A stretch of 44,456 nucleotides of DNA from Kineococcus rubinsiae. GTDB lineage: Bacteria > Actinomycetota > Actinomycetes > Actinomycetales > Kineococcaceae. This document shows positions 1,923 to 10,029 of the stretch, one piece after another. Position numbers and translations under genes: made by a program. The first letter of the stretch is position 1. The number at the start of each line of letters is the position of its first letter. Below the pieces are notes generated by a model, which saw only the letters and a list, made by a program, of their open reading frames with translations, was not told where the DNA came from and made no database searches. Where the stretch lies: NCBI RefSeq assembly GCF_011839805.1, contig NZ_VWPY01000037.1:1-44456 (forward strand), written 5' to 3'.

Positions 1923-3809
1923 TCAGAGCCCGAGGTCGCCCTCGAACGCGCCGTCCTCGATGCGCTTCTTGATCGTCTGCAGGAAGCGGGCCGCGTCCGC
2001 GCCGTCGACGATGCGGTGGTCGTAGGACAGGGCCAGGTAGGCCATCGACCGGATGGCGATCGAGTCCTGCCCGTCGGCGTCCGCGACCACGACGGGGCGC
2101 TTGACGATCGCACCCGTGCCGAGGATCGCCACCTGCGGCTGGTTGATGATCGGCGTGTCGAACAGGGCGCCGATGCTGCCGGTGTTCGTGATGGTGAACG
2201 TGCCGCCGGCCAGGTCGTCGGGGGTGATCTTGTTGGCCCGCGTGCGGGCCGCGAGGTCGCCGACCTTGCGGGCGATGCCGCCCAGGTTCAGGTCCCCGGC
2301 GTCCTTGATGACGGGGACGATGAGGCCCTTGGGGGTGTCCACGGCCATCGAGATGTTCTCGCTGGCGTGGTAGACGACGGTGTCGCCGTCGATGCTCGAA
2401 TTCAGCGACGGGTGCTGCTTGAGCGCCTCGACCGTGGCCTTGATGAAGAACGGCAGGAACGTGAGCTTCGCGCCCTCGGTCGCCTGGAAGCTGTTCTTCG
2501 CCTGCGCCCGCAGCCGCGCCACGCGGGTGACGTCGACCTCGATGACGGTCGTGAGCTGCGCCGACGTCTGCAGCGACTCGACCATGCGCTGGGCGATGAT
2601 CTTGCGCAGCCGCGACATCTTCTCGGTCGTGCCGCGCTTGGCGGAGACCTCGACGACGGGCGCCGACGGCTTGGCGGCCGGGGCGGCGGCCGGAGCCGGG
2701 GCGGCCTGCTGGGCCTTCGCGGCCTCGGCGGCCTTCGCGGCCGCGGCCTTCGCCTCCTCGGCGGCGGCCGTGACGTCCTGCTTGCGGATGCGCCCGCCGA
2801 CGCCGGTGCCCGTCAGCGCGGACAGGTCCACGCCGAGGTCCTTGGCGAGCTTGCGCACCAGCGGCGTGACGTAGGTGGTGCCGCCGGTCGGCTGCGCGGC
2901 CGGCGCCTCGCCGGCCTGCGGGGCGGGCGCGGGGGAGGAGGACGCGGAGGCCTTCTCCTCCTGCACCTGGGTGGGCTGCGCGGACGGCTGCGTGGCCTGC
3001 TCCGCCTGCTCGCGGGCGCTGTCGCGCACCGCGACCTCGTCGGCCAGCGTCTCCTCGGCCTTCGGCTCGTCCTGCGCCTCGGGGGCCGGGACCGCCGCGG
3101 GGGCGGACTCCTGGGGCGCCGACTGCTGGGGAGCGGACTCCTGGGGGGCCGACTCCTGCGGAGCGGACGGCTGAGCCGCGCCGTCGCCGATGCGGGCCAG
3201 GTCCGTGCCGACCTCGACGGTCTCGTCCTCGCCGACGAGGATCTCCTGCAGCGTCCCCGCCACGGGGGAGGGGATCTCGGTGTCGACCTTGTCGGTGGAC
3301 ACCTCCAGCAGGGGCTCGTCGACCTCGACGGCGTCGCCGACGGCCTTGAGCCAGCGGGTGACGGTGCCCTCGGTGACGCTCTCGCCCAGGGCGGGCATCT
3401 TCACGGCGGTGCCGCCGCCGGAGCTGGGCGCCGCGGCGGCCGCGGGCGGCTGCTCGGGCGACGGCTCCTGCTCGGTCTCGGGCGCCTGCTGCGCGTCCTG
3501 GGTCGTGGGCGGCTCGGGAGCGGCCTCGGGCTCCGGCTCCGGCTCCGAGGGGGCGGCGGCCTCGGGGGCCGCGCCGTCACCGATGCGCGCGAGGTCGGCG
3601 CCGACCTCGACGGTCTCGTCCTCCTCGACGAGGATCTCCTGGAGGGTGCCCGCGAACGGCGAGGGGATCTCGGTGTCGACCTTGTCGGTGGACACCTCCA
3701 GCAGGGGCTCGTCGACCTCGACGGTGTCGCCGACCTGCTTCAGCCACCGGGTCACGGTGCCCTCGGTGACGCTCTCCCCGAGCGCCGGCATCTGCACCGA
3801 GTTCGACAT
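1923..3809 (-). CDS. sucB: dihydrolipoyl acyltransferase (E2) of 2-oxoacid dehydrogenase
   Basis: A 628-residue E2 subunit carrying acyl groups on lipoyl-lysines and passing them to CoA. It has two lipoyl domains (residues about 2-78 and 135-210) with the lipoylation site in [12 protein letters not shown] (K43 and K174). A peripheral-subunit-binding domain follows (313-348, [17 protein letters not shown]), then the catalytic domain (393-628) with the active-site motif HRIVDG (H598, D602). Linkers are Ala/Pro/Glu-rich and include four SAPQE-type pentapeptides near 215-237. The ATG at 3809 is chosen because GGAG lies 10 nt upstream; the GTG at 3827 has no site. The family is usually named SucB in actinobacteria, but the mycobacterial homologue (DlaT) serves pyruvate dehydrogenase, because the actinobacterial 2-oxoglutarate decarboxylase KGD carries its own E2-like part. 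It is followed upstream on the same strand by lpd. Confidence 0.95.
3268..3331 (-). repeat. 64-bp exact repeat, lipoyl domain 2 copy
   Basis: This segment of sucB, in the second lipoyl domain around the lipoylated lysine, is identical base for base over 64 bp to 3661-3724 in the first lipoyl domain. The copies differ on both sides of the block. Confidence 0.9.
3661..3724 (-). repeat. 64-bp exact repeat, lipoyl domain 1 copy
   Basis: Partner of 3268-3331. It encodes the lysine-bearing hairpin of the first lipoyl domain. Identity at wobble positions as well as at amino-acid level points to recent duplication or gene conversion. Confidence 0.9.
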
Positions 3810-3921: not shown

Positions 3922-5301
3922 TCAGCTGTGCGAGTGCAGCGGCTTGCCGGCGAGCGCCAGGAAGGCCTCGCCGACGGCCTCGTTCTGCGTCGGGTGGGTG
4001 TGCACGAGGGCCGCGACGTCCTCCGGGAAGGCCTCCCAGTTGACGATGAGCTGGGCCTCGCCGACCTGCTCGCTCATGCGTGAGCCGACCATGTGGACGC
4101 CCACGACGGGGCCGTCCTTCTGGCGGACGAGCTTGACGAAGCCGGTCGTGCCGAGGATCTGGCTCTTGCCGTTGCCCCCGAGGTTGTACTCGACGACCTC
4201 GACGTCGCCGAACTTCTCCCGCGCCTTGGCCTCCGTCAGCCCGACGGAGGCGACCTCGGGCTCGGAGTAGGTGACCTTGGGGATGCCGAGCTCGTCGATG
4301 GGGGCCGGGGCGAGGCCCGCGATCTCCTCGGCGACGAAGATGCCCTGCTGGAACCCGCGGTGGGCGAGCTGGAGGCCGGGGACGATGTCGCCCACGGCGT
4401 AGACGCCGTCGACGTTGGTCCGCAGGCGCTCGTCGGTGAGGACGAACCCGCGGTCCATCGTGATGCCCTGCTCCTCGTAGCCGAGGTTCGCGGTGCTGGG
4501 CCCGCGGCCGACGGCGACGAGCATGATCTCGGCCTCGAAGCTCTTGCCGTTCTCGAGCTTCACGGTGACGCCGCTGTCGCTCTGCTCGACGCCCGCGAAG
4601 CGGACGCCGAGGGAGAACGCGATGCCGCGCTTGCGGAAGGCGCGCTCGAGCGCCTTGCTCGCGGCCTCGTCCTCCAGCGGCACGAGGTGCGGCAGCGCCT
4701 CGACGATGGTCACGTCGGCGCCGAAGGAGCGCCAGACGCTCGCGAACTCGACGCCGATGACGCCGCCGCCGAGGACGACGACCGACTTCGGCACCGAGTC
4801 CAGCTGCAGCGCCTGCTCGCTGGTCATGACCCGGCCGCCGATCTCGAGACCGGGCAGCGTGCGGGAGTAGGAGCCGGTGGCCAGCACGAGGGACTTGCCC
4901 GTGTAGCGCTGCCCGTCCACCTCGACGGTGCGCTTGCCCACCAGGCGGCCCGCACCGCTGACCAGCTCGACCTTGCGGGACTTCACGAGCCCCTGCAGGC
5001 CCTTGTAGAGGCGCGCGACGACGCCGTCCTTGTACTTGTTCACGCCCGCCATGTCGATCGACTCGAGCGATGCGCGGACCCCGAAGGACTCGGCCTCGCG
5101 CGCGGTGTCGGCCACTTCGGCGGCGTGGAGCAGGGCCTTGGTCGGGATGCACCCGCGGTGCAGGCAGGTCCCTCCCAGCAGGTCCTTCTCCACGAGGGCG
5201 ACCGACAGCCCGAGCTCGGCGGAGCGCAGCGCGGCGGCGTAGCCACCGCTGCCCCCTCCGAGGATGACGACGTCGTACTCCTGCTCGGCGGCACCTGCCA
5301 C
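3922..5301 (-). CDS. lpdA: dihydrolipoyl dehydrogenase (E3)
   Basis: A 459-residue FAD flavoprotein that reoxidises the dihydrolipoyl groups of E2 and reduces NAD+. The N-terminal FAD site reads [21 protein letters not shown] and is followed by the redox disulfide in [13 protein letters not shown]. The NAD site has [17 protein letters not shown], and a second FAD motif is [10 protein letters not shown]. The C-terminal interface carries the catalytic His-Glu pair in [14 protein letters not shown]. All key residues are present and the length is normal. The GTG start at 5301 has GGGAG about 7 nt upstream. It precedes sucB on the same strand with 112 bp between, so the two probably supply one or more 2-oxoacid dehydrogenase complexes together. 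Confidence 0.97.
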
Positions 5302-5414: not shown

Positions 5415-5457
5415 CGACGACGGCGGCACCACGGGTGCCGTGGTGCCGCCGTCGTCG
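5415..5457 (-). terminator. strong terminator of the KKES-repeat gene
   Basis: Perfect 18-bp stem (CGACGACGGCGGCACCAC / GTGGTGCCGCCGTCGTCG) with a 7-nt loop. It lies 40 nt downstream of the repeat-protein stop and about 110 bp before lpd. It insulates the repeat gene from lpd and supports the repeat gene being its own transcription unit. Confidence 0.85.
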
Positions 5458-5497: not shown

Positions 5498-5959
5498 TCA
5501 GCGCAGCCACTCCGTCGGCGCCGACTCCTTCTTGGCCAGGGTGGTCGACTCCTTCTTGGCGAGGGTGCTCGACTCCTTCTTGACCAGGGTCGCCGACTCC
5601 TTCTTCGCGAGGGTCGAGGACTCCTTCTTGGCCAGGACGGTCGACTCCTTCTTGGCGAGGGTGGCCGACTCCTTCTTGGCCAGGGTCGCCGACTCCTTCT
5701 TCAGGAGGGTCGCCGACTCCTTCTTCAGCAGCGTCGTCGACTCCTTCTTGGCGAGGGGAGCCGACTCCTTCTTGAGGATGACCGACTCCTTCTTCAGAGG
5801 AGCGGCCTCCTTCTTGGCGGGCGCGACGCTCGTCTGCTTCGCGATGGCGACGGGAGCGGCCGAGGCGAGACCGCTCGTCCCCACCACGGCGCCGGCCGCG
5901 AGGGCCGTGCCGACGGCGGCGAGGGTGGCGCGACGGGCGATGTGGAGCAGGCGGGACAT
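5498..5959 (-). CDS. secreted KKES octapeptide-repeat protein
   Basis: A 153-residue protein of no family I recognise. Residues 1-35 form a Sec signal peptide: basic MSRLLHIARR, a hydrophobic Ala/Val core, and a likely cut near LASAA. Residues 49-146 are thirteen tandem units: a first KKEA and then twelve KKES. From residue 63 the period is exactly eight residues, typically KKES(A/T/S)TL(A/L/V). It ends in APTEWLR. There is no wall-anchor motif, cysteine or second domain. The ATG at 5959 has AGGAGG 4 nt upstream; the in-frame upstream extension has no such site. Every unit gives about net +1 charge with a Leu near its end, so an amphipathic repetitive structure, or a polyelectrolyte binding anionic wall polymers, is conceivable. 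That is inference. It sits between pepA and lpd, which are close neighbours in related genomes, and has its own promoter region and terminator. Confidence 0.85.
   Translation of the reverse strand: MSRLLHIARRATLAAVGTALAAGAVVGTSGLASAAPVAIAKQTSVAPAKKEAAPLKKESVILKKESAPLAKKESTTLLKKESATLLKKESATLAKKESATLAKKESTVLAKKESSTLAKKESATLVKKESSTLAKKESTTLAKKESAPTEWLR
5516..5815 (-). repeat. 24-bp tandem repeat coding KKES units
   Basis: Tandem 24-bp units (minus-strand core AAGAAGGAGTC plus a more variable half). The Lys-Lys-Glu-Ser codons are almost invariant at the base level while the other four codons vary. The core contains AAGGAG, a Shine-Dalgarno-like hexamer, in the units. There are no unique spacers, so this is a coding minisatellite and not a CRISPR array. 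Confidence 0.85.
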
Positions 5960-6046
5960 GGGGCCTCCTGGGCGATGCAACCCGGCTGGGCCGGACGGTG
6001 CGAAAGGGTGGGCGGGTGGCGACGTCCCCCGAGGATCGTCACCAAG

Positions 6047-6066
6047 AGCATAGCGTCCGTCGCTAT
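6047..6066 (-). promoter_or_regulatory. possible promoter/operator of the KKES gene
   Basis: Inverted repeat ATAGCG-tccgt-CGCTAT at 6050-6066. Read on the minus strand it overlaps TATGCT (6052-6047), a fair -10 box about 90 nt upstream of the repeat-gene start. No convincing -35 is present. A repressor or activator site over the -10 is an inference. Confidence 0.4.
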
Positions 6067-6174
6067 CTGTGCACGACTCCTGATCCGCCCAGATCGGCAG
6101 GAGCTCGCCTGATCCTGAGGATCTGTGACAGAAAGTTACGGAGACCACGCTCAGCGCCCCGCCGTTAGCCCGAT

Positions 6175-6213: not shown

Positions 6214-7710
6214 TCAGGACCCCGCGAGGTCCTCCGCCAGCGCCAGCAGCGTCCGGACGGCCACGCCCGTGCCGCCCTTAGGGGTGTAGCCGTGCGGCTC
6301 ACCCGTCTGGAACGCCGGGCCCGCGATGTCCAGGTGCGCCCACGGCACCGGCTCGCCGTCGGCGCCCGCGCCGACGAACTCCTGCAGGAAGAGCCCGGCC
6401 ACGAGCATCCCGCCGGCCCGGTCGCCGATGTTGGCCAGGTCGGCGACGGGGGAGTCCAGGCTCGCCCGCAGCTCGCGCGGCAGGGGCATCGGCCAGAACT
6501 GCTCGCCCGCGCGCTCGGCCGCGGCCAGCACGCCGTCGCGGAACCCGTCGTGGTTGCCCATGACGGCCGAGACCCGGTTGCCCAGCGCGACGACCTGCGC
6601 GCCCGTGAGGGTGGCGACGTCCACGACGTGGTCGGGGTGCTCGGCGGTGGCGGCCACGAGGGCGTCGCCGAGGACGAGGCGGCCCTCGGCGTCGGTGTTG
6701 AGGACCTCGACCGTCGTCCCGCCGTGCATCGTCAGCACGTCGGAGGGGCGGATCGCCGTGCCCGAGGGCATGTTCTCCGCGACCGCGAGCCAGCCGGTGA
6801 CGCGCAGCGGCAGGCCCAGGTCGGCGACGGCCTTGACCGCGGCCAGCACGGCCGCGGCGCCGGACATGTCGCTCTTCATCGTCTCCATGCCGGCCGGGGG
6901 CTTCAGCGACAGGCCGCCCGAGTCGAACGTGATGCCCTTGCCGACCAGGGCCAGGTGGCCCCGGGCGCCCTTGGGCGCGTGCTCCACCACGACGAGGCGC
7001 GGCGGCCGCGAGGAGCCCTGGCCCACGCCGAGGATGCCGCCGAAGCCGCCGTCGGCGAGCTCCTGCTCAGCGAGGACGCGGACCGTCATCGACGAGCCCT
7101 CCGCCAGGCGGACGGCCGCCGCGGCGAGGTCGGCGGGCGCGAGGTCCCCGGGGGCGGTGTTGATCAGGTCGCGCGCCACGGCGACGGCCTCGCCGACGAC
7201 CTGGGCGCGCTCCACGGCCGCCCGCAGCGCGCGGTCGCGCGGCTTGGCGACGAGGACGGCGACCTCGGCCACCGGGGCCTTCGGCACGGTGCGGTAGAGG
7301 GAGAAGGCGTACGCGCCGAGCGCGGCGCCCTCGGCCACGGCGGCGACGGAGATCGCGTCGGGCACCGGCAGCGCCAGCGCCACGCTGCGGCGGCCGGCGA
7401 GGGAGCGCACGACGGCGCCGGCCGCACGGCGCAGCACCTCGTGGCCGTCGGCCGCGGCGAGCGGGCCGACGCCGACGAGGGCGACGAGGGAGGTCGCGAG
7501 CCCCGGCACGGCGGGCACCAGGTGCACGGACTCCGCGGCCCCGGTGACCCGCAGGTCGGTGACGGCGCTCTTCAGCGCGGACGCGGCCGCGCGCGGCAGC
7601 TCCTCGGTGGCCAGCAGGACGGGGCTGCCCCCGTCGTCGGCGACCGCCAGCACCAGCACGTCGGCGGCAGCGCTCTTGAGGGACTTCCCGGACAGGCTCA
7701 GTTGGACCAC
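6214..7710 (-). CDS. pepA: leucyl aminopeptidase (M17)
   Basis: A 498-residue cytosolic di-metal aminopeptidase removing N-terminal residues from peptides. The N-terminal macro-like domain (about 1-165) is followed by the M17 catalytic domain. The metal and catalytic residues are visible in GKGITFDSGGLSLKP (Lys, Asp), METMKSDMSGAAAV (Asp) and the family signature NTDAEGRL (Asp, Glu), with the catalytic Arg in the last. Length is typical. The GTG start at 7710 has no ribosome binding site but lies 6 nt after a TAGGCT box, so the mRNA is probably leaderless. In related actinobacteria the gene is close to lpd and sucB, as here, apart from the inserted repeat gene. Confidence 0.96.
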   Translation of the reverse strand: MVQLSLSGKSLKSAAADVLVLAVADDGGSPVLLATEELPRAAASALKSAVTDLRVTGAAESVHLVPAVPGLATSLVALVGVGPLAAADGHEVLRRAAGAVVRSLAGRRSVALALPVPDAISVAAVAEGAALGAYAFSLYRTVPKAPVAEVAVLVAKPRDRALRAAVERAQVVGEAVAVARDLINTAPGDLAPADLAAAAVRLAEGSSMTVRVLAEQELADGGFGGILGVGQGSSRPPRLVVVEHAPKGARGHLALVGKGITFDSGGLSLKPPAGMETMKSDMSGAAAVLAAVKAVADLGLPLRVTGWLAVAENMPSGTAIRPSDVLTMHGGTTVEVLNTDAEGRLVLGDALVAATAEHPDHVVDVATLTGAQVVALGNRVSAVMGNHDGFRDGVLAAAERAGEQFWPMPLPRELRASLDSPVADLANIGDRAGGMLVAGLFLQEFVGAGADGEPVPWAHLDIAGPAFQTGEPHGYTPKGGTGVAVRTLLALAEDLAGS

Positions 7711-7769: not shown

Positions 7770-8456
7770 GTGAGCGACGAGCGGACGGGACGGCCGGCGG
7801 CCGCGCAGCGCAGTGCGGACGGCGGCGAGCCGAGGCTGCGGCCCTTCGCCGCGGACGACCTCGGCGACCTGCGGGAGGTGTGCCTGCGCACGGGCGACCT
7901 CGGCGCCGACGGCAGTGCGCTCACCGCGTGGCCCGACCTGGTGGGCGACGTCTACGCCGCGCCCTACGCCGTCGCCGACCCCGGTCTCGTGACGGTCGTC
8001 GAGCTCGACTTGCGGGTCGTCGGCTACGTCATCGGCTGCCGCGACACGCTCGCCTTCGAGGCGTGGTGCGCCGAGCACTGGTGGCCCGCGCTGCGGGAGC
8101 GCTACCCCGCACCCGGGCCCGACGCGTCCGCCTTCGACGCCCCCCTGCTGCGGCAGGTGCACACGGCACCCGTGGAGGAGCGCCCGTACCTGGCGACCCA
8201 CCCGTCGCACCTGCACGTCGACCTGCTGCCCGTCGCCCAGGGCCTCGGGCTCGGCCGGCGGCTGATCGACCACGTCCTCGGCCGGCTGCGCGACGCGGGG
8301 TCACCGGGCGTGCACCTCGGGGTGGGGGCGGCCAACACCCGGGCCGTCGGGTTCTACGCCCGGCTCGGGCTGCGACCGCTGGTCGAGCCCGAGCCGGGGG
8401 CCACGAGCTACGTGCTGGGGCGCTCGTTCGCCGCGGACGGGGACGCGCCCGCCTGA
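7770..8456 (+). CDS. GNAT N-acetyltransferase, OGA C-terminal-like
   Basis: A 228-residue GCN5-related acetyltransferase. The acetyl-CoA loop is AQGLGLGRRLIDHVL, and the usual late strand-helix NTRAVGFYARLGLRPL is present. The long insert with AFEAWCAEHWWPALRERYP and the LHVDLLP strand recall the Streptomyces GNATs that resemble the C-terminal domain of human O-GlcNAcase; the acceptor is unknown. The GTG at 7770 is preferred over the ATG at 7749, because CAGGCT lies 6 nt before the GTG in the layout seen for other leaderless genes here. It is divergent from pepA. Its last 49 bp overlap the end of the convergent CobT-family gene, so the end of each gene constrains the other. Confidence 0.85.
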   Translation: MSDERTGRPAAAQRSADGGEPRLRPFAADDLGDLREVCLRTGDLGADGSALTAWPDLVGDVYAAPYAVADPGLVTVVELDLRVVGYVIGCRDTLAFEAWCAEHWWPALRERYPAPGPDASAFDAPLLRQVHTAPVEERPYLATHPSHLHVDLLPVAQGLGLGRRLIDHVLGRLRDAGSPGVHLGVGAANTRAVGFYARLGLRPLVEPEPGATSYVLGRSFAADGDAPA

Positions 8457-9736
8457 GGCGCCGCCTCGTCCCGGTCGAGGTCGTCGGGGACCCGCTCGTC
8501 GGGGACCCGCTCGTCGGGGACCCGCTCTTCCAGGACCCGCTCGCCCGGGGCCACCTCGACGGGCACGACCTCGACGGCCACGACCTCGACGGGCAGGACC
8601 TCCACGGCCGCGACCTCGTCCGCGTGGACCGAGGTCGCCTCCTCTTCCTGGGCGCTCCCGGCCACGGGCTCCGGCTCGGGTTCCGGCTCCGGGGCGGGCG
8701 GGGCGTCCGCCGCGTCGGAGGCCGCGAGCGCTTGGGCGGCCCGCAGGACCGGCAGCGCGGTGAGCGCGGCGGTGCCGCCGCCGCGGCCGGCCCCGAGGTC
8801 GAGCAGCGGGACGAGCTTGGTGCGCTCCGCCCCGAGGACGAGCGCCGGCTCGGCGCTGCGGGCGGCCAGGGCCCACCAGCTCTCCACGCCCGGCACGCCC
8901 CGGGAGGCGACGAGCGCGGCCGCGACCGAGACCACGCCGTCGAGGAGCACGGGCGTGCGCCGGGCCGCGGCGCGCAGCAGGAAGCCCACCGCGGCCGCGG
9001 TGTCGGCGCTGCCGACGGTCTGCAGCAGCACCGTGGGACGGGTCGCGTGGCGCCGGCTGCGGCGCACCGCGTCGCGGATTGCGGCGGTCTTGCGCATCCA
9101 GGCGGCGTCGTCGACACCGCTGCCGCGTCCGACGACCTCGACCGCGCCCTTGCGCAGGCAGGCCGCGACCAGCACGGCCGCGACGGTCGTCGCCCCGACG
9201 CCGAGGTCGCCCAGCACCAGCAGGTCCACGCCCGCGTCGATCTCGGCATCCGCGACGGCCGCGCCCGCGCGCAGGGCGGTCTCGGTCTCCGCGAGCGTCA
9301 TGGCGTCCTCGACGCGCACGTCGCCCGAGCCGCGGCGCACCGCGTGCGCGGTCACGGCCGCGGGCAGGTCGGACAGGTCGTCGTCGACCCCGACGGCGTG
9401 CACCGCCACCCCGACCCCGTGCAGCGCCGCGAGGCTCGCGGTCGGCCCGCGGCCCTGCACCAGGGCCCGCACGGCGTCGGCCGTGGTGCCCGGCGCGAGG
9501 CGGGAGACGTCCGCGTGCGCGACGCCGTGGTCACCCGCGAAGACGACCAGCCGCACGCGGTCCAGGGGCGCCGGGACGTCGCGGTCCTGGGTGCTCGCGA
9601 GCCAGCGGCCCACGGTCTCCAGGCGCGAGTCCGCCAGCAGCGGGGCGTCCACGCGCGGCGGCGCGGTCTGCTGGCGGGGCGAGCTCAGGCCCTCGGCGAG
9701 CTCGCGCAGGTTCAGCGGCGGCGGGCCGTCGCTCAT
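8408..9736 (-). CDS. cobT: CobT-family protein with degenerate active site and acidic repeat tail
   Basis: A 442-residue homologue of nicotinate-nucleotide:dimethylbenzimidazole phosphoribosyltransferase, which normally makes alpha-ribazole phosphate for cobalamin. Family marks remain: VVFAGDHGVAHADVS, VEVVGRGSGVDDAAWMRKTAA and TPVLLDGVVSVAAALVA. However, positions that are near-invariant in working enzymes are changed. GGAAIN is GRGPTAS, GIGNTT is GVGATT, GHRSxEPGH is AARSAEPAL, and the LGEGTGA segment carrying the catalytic Glu reads GRGGGTA. The last about 100 residues are an added Glu/Pro/Val-rich tail with pentapeptide runs (VEVVP and ERVPD types). The ATG at 9736 has AGGAGG 7 nt upstream. 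The gene position is that of cobT in mycobacteria. It may be a non-catalytic or repurposed relative; the CobT fold assignment is firm, the activity is not. Confidence 0.85.
   Translation of the reverse strand: MSDGPPPLNLRELAEGLSSPRQQTAPPRVDAPLLADSRLETVGRWLASTQDRDVPAPLDRVRLVVFAGDHGVAHADVSRLAPGTTADAVRALVQGRGPTASLAALHGVGVAVHAVGVDDDLSDLPAAVTAHAVRRGSGDVRVEDAMTLAETETALRAGAAVADAEIDAGVDLLVLGDLGVGATTVAAVLVAACLRKGAVEVVGRGSGVDDAAWMRKTAAIRDAVRRSRRHATRPTVLLQTVGSADTAAAVGFLLRAAARRTPVLLDGVVSVAAALVASRGVPGVESWWALAARSAEPALVLGAERTKLVPLLDLGAGRGGGTAALTALPVLRAAQALAASDAADAPPAPEPEPEPEPVAGSAQEEEATSVHADEVAAVEVLPVEVVAVEVVPVEVAPGERVLEERVPDERVPDERVPDDLDRDEAAPQAGASPSAANERPST
8482..8615 (-). repeat. 15-bp tandem repeats in the CobT-family tail
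   Basis: Two blocks of 15-bp units: about 8482-8548 encoding ERVPD-type pentapeptides and about 8552-8615 encoding VEVVP-type pentapeptides. The second block is built on cgacctcgacgg cores. They lie just beyond the region that overlaps the acetyltransferase gene. Confidence 0.75.
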
Positions 9737-9938
9737 CGGGGTCCTCCTGGGGCGGGGCGTGAGGTGGTCGGCCGGGCGGCGCGTGGGGCGCTCGCCCGGG
9801 GCGGGGCCCCCGATCGTCGCACCCGGGCCGCCGCACCCCCGCCCCGCCGCGCGTCCCGCCCCCACCGGACCCCCGCCCGGCCGGACCCCTCGCCCGGCCC
9901 GGCCCGTCGCCCGGCCCGACCCGTCCGCGCCGCGGTCC
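9737..9938. other. divergent intergenic region with extreme C-rich/G-rich strand bias
   Basis: The gap between the divergent CobT-family and GAF-regulator genes. From about 9788 to 9930 the plus strand is a near-continuous run of CCC/CCCC blocks, so the minus strand, which is sense for the CobT-family gene, is full of GGG/GGGG runs with short loops. No ORF with convincing coding character and no cobalamin riboswitch core was seen. Confidence 0.6.
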
Positions 9939-9967
9939 TTGTCCCGGCCGCCCGCCCGACCTACCGT
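9939..9967 (+). promoter_or_regulatory. sigma-70-type promoter of the GAF regulator
   Basis: TTGTCC, then exactly 17 nt, then TACCGT (9962-9967). This is the best -35/-10 pair in the window. The leader to the GTG start at 10030 would be about 55 nt and contains the GGAGGAGGGGG ribosome binding site. Confidence 0.6.
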
Positions 9968-10029
9968 CGGCGGCACGCACGCCCCGGCCCGCCGGCCGCG
10001 CCCGGGCCGACGGTGGAGGAGGGGGACCG

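Follow-up and report, generated by a model that had tools for sequence, protein, structure and literature searches.

The gene that lies between pepA and lpd in Kineococcus rubinsiae raises two questions: what selection has preserved in a secreted protein built almost wholly from a short tandem repeat, and what such a chain might do outside the cell. The gene is carried on a 44,456-nucleotide stretch of DNA (contig NZ_VWPY01000037.1), the whole of which is referred to here as the window. The initial annotation had suggested that a strict Lys-Lys-Glu-Ser register of eight residues, with a leucine near the end of each unit, was selected as a regular charged, amphipathic surface.

Architecture and transcription of the repeat gene

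The features of the locus and its neighbourhood are as follows.

3922..5301, minus strand: flanking gene lpd, dihydrolipoamide dehydrogenase (Pfam for the fold family; name taken from the family and the neighbouring E2 gene)
5415..5457, minus strand: terminator-type hairpin, 20-bp perfect stem without a T tract, -44.4 kcal/mol
5498..5959, minus strand: coding sequence of the KKES-repeat secreted protein, 153 aa, including the stop codon
5501..5521, minus strand: C-terminal tail APTEWLR (EKER and ERER in relatives; EWPR in the sister-genus repeat)
5522..5815, minus strand: repeat array, 13 units of KKE[AS], residues 49-146 (unit counts and tandem-repeat calls)
5816..5857, minus strand: short linker, residues 35-48 (from the sequence)
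5858..5959, minus strand: Sec-type signal peptide, residues 1-34, with cleavage presumed after ASA (sequence, orthologue pattern and a model helix at residues 3-23)
5964..5969, minus strand: ribosome-binding site AGGAGG (from the sequence; GGAGG in 10 of 10 orthologues)
6019..6042, minus strand: inverted repeat GTGACG...CGTCGC, a predicted 5'-terminal mRNA hairpin or DNA operator
6047..6052, minus strand: TATGCT box (-10 region), invariant in 10 of 10 orthologues
6069..6074, minus strand: GTGCAC box (-35 region), with variants in 3 of 10 orthologues
6214..7710, minus strand: flanking gene pepA, M17 leucyl aminopeptidase (Pfam)
8408..9976, minus strand: CobT-like phosphoribosyltransferase (DBI_PRT; Pfam)

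The open reading frame lies exactly where the initial annotation had placed it, on the minus strand. Its start at 5959 is supported over a longer GTG frame from 6148, because AGGAGG stands at 5964-5969 and the conserved leader overlies the longer frame. By inspection, the n, h and c regions of the proposed Sec signal peptide are all present, with A-S-A ahead of the assumed cut after residue 34, and in every one of the ten orthologues a simple pattern finds A[SL]A ahead of the presumed cleavage site. The count of thirteen units, one KKEA followed by twelve KKES, was correct, as was the exact period of eight from residue 63 (the first two steps between unit starts are of 7 residues each and the following ten of 8). 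The mature chain contains 13 KKE[SA] units, whereas 20,000 shuffles of it gave 0.21 on average and never more than 4, and Tandem Repeats Finder reported periods of 24 and 96 bases over the array DNA.

The description of the protein as unlike known families also stood. The best rows in Pfam and NCBIfam, DNA_primase_lrg (11.7 of 22.4 bits) and RNase_Y (17.2 of 454), fell well short of their curated cut-offs, no PHROG or PDB chain matched the window protein at 0.01, and the database searches met no characterised family. No published description of the protein was found in the Kineococcus literature, mainly open-access, and no such protein was found in the accessible portions of papers on copper proteomics and codon-predicted expression in K. 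radiotolerans. In the available part of one paper, PepA of that species is listed as Krad_3276 and Krad_1149 (PMC2587704); no literature was found on the neighbouring tags Krad_3275 and Krad_3277.

The initial annotation had credited the gene with its own leader, and the case is now stronger than was claimed: a promoter and leader block is common to ten of ten orthologues, in the order GTGCAC, TATGCT, GTGACG four bases on, and GGAGG before the ATG. In the window the upstream GTGCAC box is palindromic, and TATGCT lies 16 bases further on. A consensus scan reported no sigma-70 consensus promoter at the window leader. A covariance model (R1) built from the ten leaders themselves gave one match per genome in all ten, at E 1.4e-13 or better. 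When the 12 genomes of the family were searched with R1 and the best 150 candidates per genome were scored, the next best matches had E values of 0.19, 0.92 and 1; none was convincing as another copy, and a regulon with a common leader was rejected on these values.

Within the GTGACG hairpin, 96.3% of cells were paired, compared with 39-55% when the partner was slid. All changes in the hairpin were one-sided, with no two-sided covariation among the ten orthologue leaders. An RNA structure in the leader is therefore unproven, and the inverted repeat may be a DNA dyad rather than an RNA structure. No Rfam family reached its gathering score in the window. A relaxed Rfam scan of ten loci returned ten rows, all below gathering scores, and a riboswitch or other known RNA in the leader was rejected. 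The relaxed scan placed a 6C RNA on the gene strand of one locus (L007) at E 4.7, below its gathering score.

The claim of a strong terminator held in part. The perfect 20-bp stem at -44.4 kcal/mol is in its favour, but it lacks a T tract and was missed by the consensus scan. The hairpin starts 41 bases past the stop codon, and every one of the ten orthologues has a hairpin behind its stop, with energies between -22 and -52 kcal/mol. The arginine codon CGG was found 2 times in 125 in the orthologues, against 13% in three ribosomal genes and 29% in seven window genes, the orthologues being of shared ancestry and from several genomes and the reference genes from one genome. Avoidance of CGG, together with the AGGAGG site and the conserved promoter, gives a hint that the gene may be well expressed. 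GAA makes up about 2% of the glutamate codons of seven window genes, but it encodes the core glutamate in 6 of 13 units of G006 and in 5 of 9 units of G009 (L004, L005), an excess that may reflect a change spread by duplication.

The codons also bear on a role at the level of the RNA. Nearly every unit carries AAGGA[GA], which is both Shine-Dalgarno-like and CsrA-like, and the mRNA could act as a sponge or ribosome pauser. The CsrA-type motif is ANGGA. AAGGA is present in 100 of 102 units of the family, ANGGA was seen by inspection in 5 of 6 units of a sister-genus protein (in genome G011, described below), and csrA is present in K. radiotolerans according to the available part of PMC2587704. 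However, AAG-GAR is forced by Lys-Glu together with codon usage (78 of 78 Lys codons in seven genes are AAG), and the signal peptide and reading frame are conserved. We consider an RNA-level role extremely unlikely.

Occurrence in Kineococcus and a possible counterpart in a sister genus

The genomes of the family comprised 11 from Kineococcus and one from another genus (G011). An orthologue with a signal peptide and 6-16 [KR]KE units lies beside pepA in 10 of the 11 Kineococcus genomes, so both the open reading frame and its signal peptide are present in sister species. In a contig scan the nearest pepA relatives of the window were those of K. siccus R8 (92% identity) and K. indalonis T90 (77%). 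In the window and in these two species lpd adjoins the gene, and the start of lpd was seen downstream in several others.

The eleventh genome, G010, is filed as Kineococcus and is 99% complete. Its match to the family was the signal peptide of another secreted protein and was rejected. In this genome pepA was found only as a distant paralogue, lpd was absent at 1e-60, and a 9.1-kb DNA probe of the region recovered three scattered pieces (among the best 40 of 1628 candidates). Since the pepA-lpd region seems absent from the assembly, perhaps through a gap, G010 is uninformative and counts neither for nor against retention of the gene.

The gene had been called an extra one in an otherwise conserved neighbourhood, and comparison with other genera bears this out. 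Of 53 loci in the contig scan, 38 carry pepA and lpd together, and 36 of these are from outside Kineococcus. A tandem peptide repeat is absent from the interval in 34 of the 36; in the other two, arginine-rich frames over a gene reading as an oxidoreductase were rejected. All 36 loci were covered by this test, and longer lags on the gene strand gave the same result.

Wider searches gave the same picture of a restricted family. In the order, 18 of 297 genomes matched at E 1e-4 (best 13 candidates per genome scored), 10 of them Kineococcus; the eight others were rejected as other secreted or Lys/Glu-rich proteins, or as frames across unrelated DNA repeats. In the class, 8 of 394 genomes matched at 1e-5 (best 10 candidates per genome scored). 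The seven besides our own were two EESTPAA-repeat proteins, one foreign signal peptide, one NlpC/P60 enzyme and three DNA-repeat frames. In the phylum, 2 of 396 genomes matched at 1e-8 (best 9 candidates per genome scored), namely our own and an EESTPAA protein. No true relative from beyond Kineococcus was found among the matches scored in these 297, 394 and 396 genomes. A plasmid match with 33% identity and E 0.02 was not accepted as a relative, and the weak matches L012-L016 were rejected on reading. L090 and L093 are other secreted proteins, L095 is a frame over DNA repeats, and L094 and L096 contained nothing under the pattern applied.

Some of these loci have repeats of their own. L124 and L125, from a large-genome actinobacterial genus, encode secreted EESTPAA-repeat proteins with a LAETG-type C-terminal anchor; they are unrelated to the Kineococcus protein and similar in repeat style. 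L128 (G569:C31) encodes, on the minus strand, an enzyme of the NlpC/P60 type in which Pfam recognises a peptidoglycan-binding domain. In frame before it is a repetitive stretch containing RKEST, RQESSG and NEWESSG, which recalls the RKES and EWPR repeats; the first 80 codons of this frame contain no ATG or GTG start, and the stretch may be untranslated.

In G011, the only other genus of the family examined, the family profile had no match. The pepA-lpd interval of this genome contains a gene for an 83-aa protein (L111:3177-3428, G011:C6) with a signal peptide and six EWPR units spaced by A[MT], which ends at the last arginine. It resembles the window protein in its place between pepA and lpd, in gene order and strand, in its signal peptide, and in a short tandem repeat that runs to the C terminus. 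As in the Kineococcus orthologues, a strong hairpin (-50 kcal/mol) follows the stop, and the A[MT]EWPR unit is similar to the TEWLR with which the window protein ends. It differs in that the repeat unit is wholly other, with Trp-Pro, and in that the net charge is about zero. Its leader was no more similar to Kineococcus leaders than shuffled sequence in 7 of 10 comparisons (75-243 of 300 shuffles reached the score) and weakly similar in three (G008, 5; G007, 12; G000, 16 of 300); the two alignments printed fall in a GC-rich stretch past the promoter boxes. The G011 protein is likely, though unproven, to be homologous to the Kineococcus family, and we think that it may be the same gene in which another piece has been amplified. 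With the G011 protein as query, the ten other matches in the order at 1e-3 (11 of 396 including itself) appeared to be frames across other genes or DNA repeats, several of them interrupted by stops, and were rejected.

Turnover of the repeat and predicted disorder of the chain

The ten orthologues are 96-176 aa long. Unit number, which the initial annotation had proposed to compare between related strains, ranges from 6 to 16 in the sister species, and all mature chains are net positive (+4 to +16). Among 102 units, 70 are RKES, 13 KKES, 12 KKEA, 5 RKEA, 1 KKEV and 1 RKET, so that the core [KR]KE is kept in 102 of 102. In the nine bases that encode this core, 17 of the 102 units depart from the majority of their own array, all synonymously, with no change of amino acid. 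Selection on the charged core was thus upheld.

The other elements of the proposed register were not. Of the 92 steps from unit to unit, 73 span 7 residues and 13 span 8, the window contributing 10 of the latter; four span 6 and two span 5, and mixed spacings of 5/8 and 6/7 occur in G003 and G008. A strict eight-residue register is therefore not supported as the selected trait. Nor is a leucine near the end of each unit, since most species have Ala, Thr, Asp, Gln, Asn or Glu in its place, and the serine is missing from 12 of 13 units in K. siccus, where 9 of 12 spacers contain proline. Each array has 2-10 kinds of spacer. The window protein and its K. siccus orthologue end in TEWLR, six orthologues in EKER and two in ERER. 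In a PepA tree the window pairs with K. siccus and G003 pairs with G008, and a third group holds the remaining six orthologue-bearing genomes, each fork at 100/99, and each of the three groups has a distinct repeat style; G011 falls outside the Kineococcus groups at a fork of only 84/95. Because changes in the core are synonymous only and the spacers vary, the arrays appear to turn over by duplication of units, with [KR]KE held by selection.

Such turnover might instead be selfish or nearly neutral expansion of a repeat in a dispensable secreted orphan. Repeat number, spacing and spacers do change fast, and several arrays look homogenised within a species, but the promoter and leader are found throughout the genus, the core is without exception, and every informative genome has retained the gene. 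Neutral expansion is in our judgement distinctly unlikely.

The spacers bear on another reading, in which the protein is a multicopy precursor that a protease cuts after the basic pair to free short E[SA]xxx peptides. The chain has a signal peptide and units parted by dibasic KK or RK, then E and mostly S or A. In this it fits, by sequence, the available description of fungal KEX2-processed repeat proteins, which also have a signal peptide and repeats parted by dibasic residues (PMC9769878, in part). Spacers are nearly uniform in G005 (7 of 8 alike, two kinds in all) and in G001 (13 of 15), and the G011 array ends exactly at an arginine. The Kineococcus protein differs from these in being bacterial, with units that are often heterogeneous. 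Against the precursor reading, the 12 spacers of the window are of 10 kinds and all six spacers of G008 are different, which is poor for a defined signal, spacers differ between species, and no maturation gene adjoins the locus, the flanking genes being pepA and lpd. Processing of this kind is unlikely. A fuller version, that a bacterial multicopy precursor yields 5- to 8-residue peptides whose sequence is renewed between species, and was exchanged completely for A[MT]EWPR in the sister genus, is slightly less likely still; if true, the locus would be a source of a species-private peptide signal or effector from one fixed chromosomal slot.

By the charge-hydropathy line, all ten mature chains are classed as disordered. 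An AlphaFold2 model of the window protein, made from a thin alignment of three sequences, had a mean pLDDT of 50.8 and a pTM of 0.16; its lone helix covers residues 3-23, in the signal peptide, and there was neither helix nor strand in the repeat array. Hydrophobic moments were taken at the harmonics of the repeat, as 100 degrees over whole chains is misleading for heptads. For a helix the moment of the window array was 0.02 at 103 degrees and 0.26 at 90 degrees, and that of G001 and G006 was 0.43-0.44 at 103 degrees. Compatibility with a helix thus drifts within the genus, the spacers of K. siccus being rich in proline, and a helix is possible in G001 and G006.

These values are relevant to a regular amphipathic or coiled-coil repeat capable of self-assembly, as the initial annotation had suggested. 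In its favour are the heptad spacing of most species, the presence of a hydrophobic residue in the majority of units, the moments of G001 and G006, and a match to bZIP that the K. siccus chain attains at the borderline (27.7 against 27.6 bits). The near-absent moment of the window array at 103 degrees, the prolines of K. siccus, the mixed spacing in G003 and G008, and an array without helix in the three-sequence model all argue against it, and we regard a coiled coil as very unlikely. The Pfam bZIP match belongs to the K. siccus orthologue at L017:3848-4276, in which no stretch passes the cut-off alone. It probably arises from heptad leucines and lysines and is a trap for automatic annotation; a leucine zipper was rejected on the window period of 8, the prolines of the K. 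siccus units and the model.

Since phase, serine and leucine drift and proline is tolerated, the sequences suggest that what is conserved is a disordered, charge-patterned secreted chain rather than a fold or a strict amphipathic eight-residue register. We rate the protein as a lineage-restricted, secreted, disordered repeat protein whose special feature is replacement of the repeat at a fixed locus.

Candidate roles of the secreted chain

Because the spacing, number and filler of the repeats change between species, the evidence favours a flexible, charged chain at the cell surface or in the matrix over a folded machine. Its most likely role, which was among those suggested by the initial annotation and which we put forward tentatively, is to bind anionic polymers of the wall or matrix through many weak contacts. 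The chain would be exported by Sec and the mature part would be unfolded afterwards. Two bases and one acid in every 5-8 residues would make weak, interchangeable contacts with an anionic wall polymer, the extracellular matrix or extracellular DNA, and the strength of binding would be tuned by the number of units. Slippage of the repeat would renew the array and selection would keep its charge pattern; neither an enzyme activity nor a fold would be expected.

Sortase-anchored wall proteins have a C-terminal LPXTG-type motif, a hydrophobic stretch and a basic tail. By inspection, no such anchor is present at the C termini TEWLR, EKER and ERER. This absence counts for the binding role, together with the conserved place, the invariant core, the drifting spacing, the predicted disorder, the net positive charge and the hints of good expression. 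Also in its favour, K. radiotolerans forms cubes of cells joined by a thick extracellular matrix, according to the part of PMC2587704 available. Against it, the G011 protein, if it is a homologue at all, is near-neutral, so that a net positive charge is not a constant feature at that distance; moreover, nothing conserved explains retention, and the chain may diffuse away.

Two known systems may work in a similar way. The mycobacterial heparin-binding haemagglutinin, HBHA, has lysine-rich C-terminal repeats of the types KKAAPA and KKAAAKK (PMC3293801, in part). It is likewise an actinobacterial surface protein with short Lys-Lys repeats that include Ala or Pro, and the K. siccus unit KKEAAPL resembles KKAAPA. 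We take HBHA as a candidate for similar working, by binding of polyanions, and not as a homologue. At its N terminus HBHA has a hydrophobic stretch, and it also contains a coiled-coil domain (PMC3293801). Its repeats are free of Glu, whereas the Kineococcus protein has a signal peptide, one Glu per unit and no other domain. In the sequence there is no room for an HBHA-type coiled-coil domain beyond the signal peptide, linker and array, and the AlphaFold2 model has no helix outside residues 3-23. In exported Plasmodium proteins, lysine-rich repeats such as EKK localise better as repeat number increases, which the authors ascribe probably to electrostatics, and repeat length varies between strains (PMC5207086, in part). 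These differ in being eukaryotic and directed to a host cell, and are without homology; the likeness would be one of working only.

A rather unlikely alternative to polymer binding is that the chain is an extracellular protectant in drying, a hydrophilic disordered polyampholyte that would work as LEA proteins do, through composition more than exact sequence. K. radiotolerans resists drying, and the chains are charged, rich in Ala, Ser and Thr, disordered and free to drift in sequence; a near-neutral version such as that of G011 would also be tolerated. Known LEA proteins are mostly intracellular, which counts against a protectant, as the Kineococcus protein is exported. No LEA family in Pfam was matched, the sole row being a sub-threshold DNA_primase_lrg at E 0.16. 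Hydrophilins and LEA proteins are likewise charged, hydrophilic and disordered, but the hydrophilin criterion, as given in the part of PMC4190154 available, is more than 6% glycine, and the ten mature chains contain 0-2.4%. In favour of a protectant, K. radiotolerans is described as radiation resistant in the accessible part of PMC2587704.

Whichever role applies, the locus is a natural experiment in the evolution of a secreted repeat: place, promoter, signal peptide and a three-residue core have been held, and period, number, spacers and perhaps the whole repeat have been replaced. It also illustrates that low-complexity secreted proteins can be genus-wide yet nameless in the family libraries searched. 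If the protein is a component of the matrix or wall, it would offer a way into the matrix that joins cells in a genus one of whose members resists radiation.

Other short repeats occur in coding sequences of the window. The E2 acyltransferase has a linker of tandem QESAP repeats (3099-3168) between its lipoyl and later domains, and the C-terminal tail of the CobT-like phosphoribosyltransferase (8481-8630) consists of short charged repeats of the VPDER and VEVVPVEV types.
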